Origin: an uncultured Flavobacteriales bacterium
Lineage (GTDB): Bacteria > Bacteroidota > Bacteroidia > Flavobacteriales_D > Parvicellaceae
DNA length: 64,000 nt
Reading direction: 5' to 3'
NCBI GenBank assembly: GCA_943788755.1
Contig: CALSRM010000003.1
Coordinates: 372,001 to 436,000, forward strand
In this document: positions 29,402-30,048 of the stretch, one piece after another
Numbering within the stretch: the first letter of the stretch is position 1
Layout: each line of letters opens with the position of its first letter
The notes under the pieces: generated by a model
What the model saw: the letters and a program-made list of their open reading frames with translations, nothing else
What the model was told of the DNA's origin: nothing
Databases searched by the model: none
Made by a program: the position numbers and the translations under genes

Positions 29402-29503
29402 AAAATGTTTGCAATCATCAACGCAAGTTATTCCTTTTTATAAAATAAATTACATAACTATTGATTACTAATCGAGTATCAGGATTCCCAGTAAATCGAT
29501 TGC

Positions 29504-29543
29504 AACCAAAAAAAGCATCAATAATTTGATGCTTTTTTTGGTT
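29504..29543 (-). terminator. Strong terminator downstream of tRNA-Gly (17-bp perfect stem)
   Basis: The two 17-nt arms at 29504-29520 and 29527-29543 are perfectly complementary (core GCATCA/TGATGC flanked by A7/T7), with a 6-nt loop. On the minus strand it follows tRNA-Gly directly, and its A/T tracts let it work in both directions. Confidence 0.9.
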
Positions 29544-29544
29544 G

Positions 29545-29617
29545 AGCGGGTGAAGGGATTCAAACCCTCGACCCCCACCTTGGCAAGGTGGTGCTCTAAT
29601 CACTGAGCTACACCCGC
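29545..29617 (-). tRNA. tRNA-Gly (anticodon GCC) with altered elbow pair 19-56
   Basis: The cloverleaf is GCGGGTG/CACCCGC acceptor, D stem GCTC/GAGC, anticodon stem CCACC/GGTGG with loop TTGCCAA (anticodon GCC), and T stem GAGGG/CCCTT, with discriminator T. The T loop is TTTGAAT, so position 56 is T instead of the nearly invariant C. The D loop is AGTGATTA, so position 19 reads A instead of G. The G19-C56 tertiary pair is therefore replaced by a possible A19-U56 pair. A strong promoter and terminator flank the gene, so it is probably expressed. Confidence 0.95.
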
Positions 29618-29631
29618 TTTTAAAGTGCGTG

Positions 29632-29661
29632 CAAATATAAGAACGCTTTTAGAATTACAAA
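29632..29661 (-). promoter_or_regulatory. tRNA-Gly/tRNA-Pro promoter (TTTG-N18-TATATTTG)
   Basis: On the minus strand TTTG (29661-29658) and TATATTTG (29639-29632) are separated by exactly 18 bp, a perfect match to the Bacteroidota promoter consensus. The box lies 14 bp upstream of the tRNA-Gly 5' end. Confidence 0.85.
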
Positions 29662-29738: not shown

Positions 29739-29768
29739 TTTGCAGAAAGAATTAAGTTTCTATATTTG
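29739..29768 (+). promoter_or_regulatory. Promoter for structured RNA and tRNA-Leu (TTTG-N18-TATATTTG)
   Basis: TTTG (29739-29742) and TATATTTG (29761-29768) are 18 bp apart, with the same boxes and spacing as the divergent tRNA-Gly promoter. The expected start site is near 29774. A small palindrome AGGTTT-A-AAACCT (29716-29728) lies 10 bp upstream of the -33 box. It is the only good promoter in front of tRNA-Leu, almost 190 bp away from it. Confidence 0.85.
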
Positions 29769-29773
29769 CAGCC

Positions 29774-29960
29774 GCTAAAGGAAAAACGATTCCAATTTTA
29801 GTTTGAAATAATTGCAATACTTTGGTGAGACGTCCTTATGATGTTTGAGTTCGATTCTCTTTATTAGCACGCCAAACCACAAGTCTTAACATCCGTTAAG
29901 ACATTATTGTGAGAATCCCATTCTGATGCCGATTTATCGGAATCATCAGAATGTGGATGA
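29774..29960 (+). ncRNA. Candidate structured RNA upstream of tRNA-Leu
   Basis: There is no reading frame here, but strong structure. The predicted transcript start coincides with GCTAA (29774-29778), which can pair with TTAGC (29864-29868). Just before the latter stands a T-arm-like unit GAG-TTCGATT-CTC (29847-29859), so the first ~96 nt resemble a degenerate tRNA with a long variable region. Two strong hairpins follow. One is CACAA+GTCTTAAC, loop ATCC, GTTAAGAC+TTGTG (29878-29911). The other is CATTCTGATG+CCGA, loop TTTA, TCGG+CATCAGAATG (29919-29953). tRNA-Leu begins 9 nt later. It may be a tRNA relic, a processed leader or a small RNA; I cannot name a family. Confidence 0.5.
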
Positions 29961-29961
29961 T

Positions 29962-30045
29962 GCTCGAGTGGTGGAATTGGTAGACACGCAAGACTTAAAA
30001 TCTTGTGTCCTTTGGGACGTGCGGGTTCAAGTCCCGCCTCGAGTA
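29962..30045 (+). tRNA. tRNA-Leu (anticodon TAA)
   Basis: This is a class II tRNA with acceptor GCTCGAG/CTCGAGT (terminal G-T), anticodon stem CAAGA/TCTTG, loop CTTAAAA (anticodon TAA), a long variable arm (TGTCCTTTGGGACGT) and T arm GCGGG-TTCAAGT-CCCGC. The discriminator is A, as leucyl-tRNA synthetase requires. No CCA is encoded. Confidence 0.96.
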
Positions 30046-30048
30046 CTA

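Follow-up and report, generated by a model that had tools for sequence, protein, structure and literature searches.

A tRNA-Gly(GCC) gene with an A19-U56 elbow in place of G19-C56, and the recurrence of this exchange in other bacterial and viral tRNAs

Results

A tRNA-Gly(GCC) gene carries A19 and U56

The window, by which we mean the whole 64,000-nucleotide stretch of Flavobacteriales DNA analysed here, contains a tRNA-Gly(GCC) gene on its minus strand, together with putative control elements and a neighbouring tRNA gene:

29503..29544, minus strand: perfect 19-bp hairpin with a T run, probable terminator, directly 3' of tRNA-Gly(GCC); fold -25.2 kcal/mol
29545..29617, minus strand: tRNA-Gly(GCC), single copy, no encoded CCA; ARAGORN (29544-29617) and Rfam RF00005
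29562, minus strand: U56 in the T loop (normally C56); sequence, parsed T loop tttgaat
29600, minus strand: A19 in the D loop (normally G19); sequence, parsed D loop agtgatta
29632..29661, minus strand: Bacteroidota-type promoter TTTG-N18-TATATTTG, 14-44 bases upstream of tRNA-Gly(GCC); consensus match
29962..30046, plus strand: tRNA-Leu(TAA) with a normal elbow, neighbouring gene and marker of the orthologous locus in relatives; ARAGORN

The gene scores 68.8 bits against the full RF00005 model (positions 1-71; cut-off 29), as expected of an elongator-tRNA cloverleaf, and all of its stems are intact. Reading of the sequence shows the complete glycine identity set (G1-C72, C2-G71, C35, C36 and U73; PMC9976931). 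Counted from the 5' end at position 29617, the linear sequence follows standard tRNA numbering except in the D loop, which reads AGTGATTA on the minus strand (A14 G15 U16 G18 A19 U20 U20a A21), and where the G18-A19 register is fixed by the D loops of homologues, AGTTGATA and AGTTGGTA. The T loop, TTTGAAT, corresponds to U54 U55 U56 G57 A58 A59 U60. These readings agree with the original prediction of A19 and U56 in this tRNA, which is confirmed by the sequence and by the parsed loops.

The remainder of the molecule is standard at U8, A14, G15-C48, U54, U55, G57, A58, G53-C61, U54-A58 and U73, and the T arm (GAGGG-TTTGAAT-CCCTT) and D loop together provide the framework of U54-A58, G18-U55 and G53-C61. 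The letters G19-C56 are absent, yet a Watson-Crick 19-56 pair is possible as A19-U56. The gene thus shares its cloverleaf, anticodon loop, glycine identity set, T-loop fold and locus in relatives with the canonical bacterial tRNA-Gly(GCC) (RF00005), but differs from it in having A19-U56 where the canonical molecule has G19-C56.

A further stretch on the plus strand, 5' of tRNA-Leu(TAA) (29739-29932), is conserved in the sister species and includes both a hairpin, GTCTTAACATCCGTTAAGAC, and GAGTTCGATTCTC, which resembles a T arm. It has no match in ARAGORN or Rfam, its hairpin could not be located in the other genera retrieved, and it is possibly a tRNA relic or a leader RNA.

The gene is single-copy and conserved with its promoter

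An Rfam search collecting the tRNAs of the 3.17-Mb genome yielded one Gly(GCC) gene, and thus no second copy with a normal elbow. The second glycine tRNA of the genome, with anticodon TCC, has the usual G19-C56 elbow. Codons GGT and GGC account for 441 of the 1183 glycine codons in the long ORFs of the window.

The Bacteroidota promoter consensus is TTTG-N16-23-TANNTTTG, which has seven matches in the whole window, counting both strands; the match upstream of tRNA-Gly(GCC) lies in a region that is nearly unchanged in a genome of a second species of the same genus (G035), whose tRNA-Gly(GCC) is 100% identical. On the 3' side, the hairpin at 29503..29544 escaped a simple terminator scan, presumably as its T run forms part of the stem. 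Conservation, single copy, promoter and terminator together suggest that tRNA-Gly(GCC) is a functional gene.

Two tRNAs of the same genome share the exchanged elbow

The genome has 32 distinct tRNAs; G19-C56 is present in 30 of them and A19-U56 in the other two, with none in a mixed state. The second A19-U56 molecule is tRNA-Arg(ACG) (genome G000, contig C2:384550-384623; L030:1501-1574), with D loop AACTGAATA and the same T loop, TTTGAAT. A search of the order with an Arg(ACG) pattern open to G or A at position 19 and to C or U at position 56 matched 15 genomes from three families, and all 15 have A19-U56.

The elbow of tRNA-Gly(GCC) is exchanged in place in relatives and recurs in other phyla

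From the Gly(GCC) genes of an order-wide search, the elbow was read in representatives of 12 families. A19-U56 occurs in family f13 and in part of family f1, G19-C56 in the remaining families, and mixed states in none. This comparison of homologues, proposed alongside the original prediction, returned either one Watson-Crick pair or the other. Within f1, seven genomes have A-U and 17 have G-C, again without mixed states, and one genus of the family (g2) contains both. The gene adjoins tRNA-Leu(TAA) in A-U relatives (for example L065 and L070) as well as in G-C relatives (for example L061 and L062), so that the locus is common to both states, which shows that the elbow was exchanged in place.

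Next to these relatives, 84,980 species genomes were scanned for Gly(GCC) genes with U56 fixed and either G or A allowed at position 19. At least 114 loci with U56 were found, and all 114 of those listed have A19, more than chance would give, with 25 different sequences among them. According to record titles, which are to be used cautiously as a source of taxonomy, the carriers among the matches listed belong to Clostridia, Bdellovibrionota, Bacteroidota (Labilibaculum, Crocinitomix), Gammaproteobacteria (SAR86 and others), Saccharibacteria and Peregrinibacteria. The class to which one of the Clostridia carriers belongs has three A-U, five G-C and no mixed genes among its Gly(GCC) matches.

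Two individual records deserve mention. The title of L180 (a Saccharospirillaceae MAG) is at odds with G024, a genome assigned to the order of the window, suggesting a mislabelled record. In L205 (Saccharibacteria), tRNA-Gly(CCC) has U19-A56, the opposite Watson-Crick exchange, and the neighbouring Gly(GCC) has A19-U56.

Additionally, 247 Bacteroidota genomes were surveyed with a class-I tRNA pattern with the common D stem, naming the species from the matched anticodon. Within the part of tRNA diversity that such strict patterns cover, this survey found 12 A19-U56 genes in eight genomes: four Gly(TCC), two each of Arg(TCT), Thr(TGT) and Arg(CCT), and one each of Ala(TGC) and Gly(GCC). The mixed patterns G19-U56 and A19-C56 had no match in the same 247 genomes.

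Viral tRNAs changed at both positions nearly always retain a pair

Viral contigs contain at least 124 tRNA matches in which both positions are changed; those listed comprise 100 A-U, 18 U-A, 5 C-G and one A-A, so that 123 of the 124 listed have a Watson-Crick 19-56 pair. After identical sequences were collapsed, with related ones all kept at full weight, 114 of the 115 unique double-changed sequences among the matches listed could pair, compared with a mean of 78.6 and a maximum of 93 in 20,000 shuffles. Single changes also occur: there are 65 places with G19 and a changed position 56, G-U accounting for 43, and 64 with a changed position 19 and C56, A-C accounting for 17. The existence of such unmatched states indicates that the 19-56 pair is not absolutely required in viruses.

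Arg(TCT) and Thr(TGT) make up most of the swapped-elbow viral tRNAs (L246-L365), and all three alternative Watson-Crick pairs are seen among the matches listed, in which one unique A-U sequence is a Gly(GCC). In a BLAST search of named phages with Gly and Arg tRNA queries, the matches listed were at 79-84%.

Discussion

A probable compensated elbow under pair-preserving selection

The A19-U56 exchange had originally been proposed to be compensatory, a view strongly supported by two observations: no mixed Gly(GCC) was found in bacteria, and the double-changed viral matches listed are nearly all Watson-Crick. We consider it very probable, from these comparisons of genes, that tRNA-Gly(GCC) is a working elongator with a compensated A19-U56 elbow, which its partners would accept through stacking and which would have arisen recurrently under pair-preserving selection. 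Such a tRNA would decode GGC and GGU codons, with A19-U56 joining the D loop to the T loop instead of G19-C56. The outer face of the elbow is read by stacking, by RNase P, the L1 stalk and the T-box (PMC4810234; PMC12974513). Since A-U and G-C share Watson-Crick geometry and differ little in shape, this flat outer face would be kept, and since stacking on a Watson-Crick pair should be indifferent to the letters, A-U, U-A and C-G should all serve. RNase P, the L1 stalk and other partners may accordingly be expected to accept A19-U56; the class A RNase P RNA of the genome is normal (258 bits).

Judged from the taxonomic spread of A19-U56, the swap would arise repeatedly in evolution and in several tRNA species, and would then be held by selection for pairing. 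The most likely route would pass through a short-lived G19-U56 wobble intermediate, as the larger number of viral G-U (43) than A-C (17) cases weakly suggests. Because A19-U56 is found in Arg(ACG) of this genome and in further tRNA species, as well as beyond the phylum and in phages, it is a recurrent variant rather than a single oddity, and its distribution indicates that selection at the elbow keeps the pairing shape, not the letters.

Alternative explanations

The swap itself could instead be adaptive: in phage tRNAs and in particular cellular ones (Gly, Arg, Thr, Ala) it might be selected because it modulates or prevents some interaction at the elbow, for example docking on the ribosome, translocation or T-loop modification, or because it lets the tRNA escape an elbow-reading protein or nuclease. 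Consistent with this idea, the set of tRNAs is non-random, with Gly(GCC) in several phyla, Arg(ACG) A-U in every genome matched in the order, and Arg(TCT) and Thr(TGT) commonest among the viral matches listed; however, the patterns used bias the sampling, A-U and G-C coexist within one genus, and no genomic partner was found to vary with elbow state, making adaptation an unlikely explanation.

Replacement of the gene by a phage-borne or otherwise transferred A-U tRNA is very unlikely, for although A-U is common among double-changed viral tRNAs, the same tRNA-Leu-linked locus is occupied in G-C and A-U relatives, and Gly(GCC) contributes only one unique viral A-U sequence among the matches listed.

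A tRNA reserved for non-ribosomal work would have a precedent in the staphylococcal cell-wall-bridge tRNA-Gly, in which the G18-G19 and T-psi-C contacts are lost and which is present as an extra gene copy. The likeness is that of a tRNA-Gly with altered D and T loops; the gene described here, however, is the only Gly(GCC) gene of its genome and retains G18, U54, U55 and A58, with the 19-56 pair compensated rather than lost, so that such a role is scarcely credible.

Finally, the idea that the gene is misread by sequencing, or is a degenerate and silent copy, has nothing in its favour beyond the rarity of the bases and can be set aside, as can a second normal copy, since this sole GCC-anticodon tRNA, beside long ORFs that use GGT and GGC as described above, has intact stems and an identical counterpart with a near-identical promoter in another species.

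Relation to known systems

Both the 19-56 pair and the general principle that tertiary pairs covary have long been known. A search of the open literature yielded no description of natural A19-U56 tRNAs and no paper on 19-56 covariation in tRNA; earlier comparative work in subscription journals or tRNA databases may have listed some cases. G19-C56 has been termed invariant in a paper on synthetic tRNAs (PMC6337575), and according to a review of T loops the bases are conserved (PMC7912444). Among the listed substrates of the protein-only RNase P PRORP is an engineered A19/U56 pre-tRNA, with constants like those of the C56-to-U56 change (PMC5039416). It carries the same double exchange, but is one designed substrate, whereas the A19-U56 elbows described here are natural, recurrent and found in cells with RNA-based RNase P.

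The natural non-canonical tRNAs covered by one review (PMC7609411), namely tRNA-Sec, tRNA-Pyl and mitochondrial tRNAs, likewise depart from tRNA norms; but where tRNA-Pyl and many of the mitochondrial molecules have given up the contact between 19 and 56, the present tRNA-Gly(GCC) has exchanged it. Neither A19 nor U56 turned up in a term search of that review.

T-boxes, which read the same face of the elbow, are present in 16 Clostridia genomes with an A-U tRNA-Gly. In the part of these matches that was inspected, none stands before a recognised glycine gene and most precede synthetases for Val, Ile, Phe, Asp, Asn or Thr, a result limited to that part and by the shortness of glycine T-boxes.

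Implications

The swap is wider than the first reading of this gene saw, and it is a variant of a known molecule, no new kind of system. tRNA annotation and engineering that hold C56 or G19 fixed should be relaxed to a rule of pairing. Natural tRNAs with swapped elbows are also ready-made substrates for testing how far recognition of the elbow is pure stacking, and a mature A19-U56 tRNA should be obtainable, as one carrier is the record of a named isolate, Labilibaculum filiforme 59.16B (L138). G19-C56, called invariant, is the surface gripped by RNase P, the L1 stalk and T-box riboswitches, and the natural A-U, U-A and C-G elbows indicate that it is the pair, and not its letters, that selection keeps.
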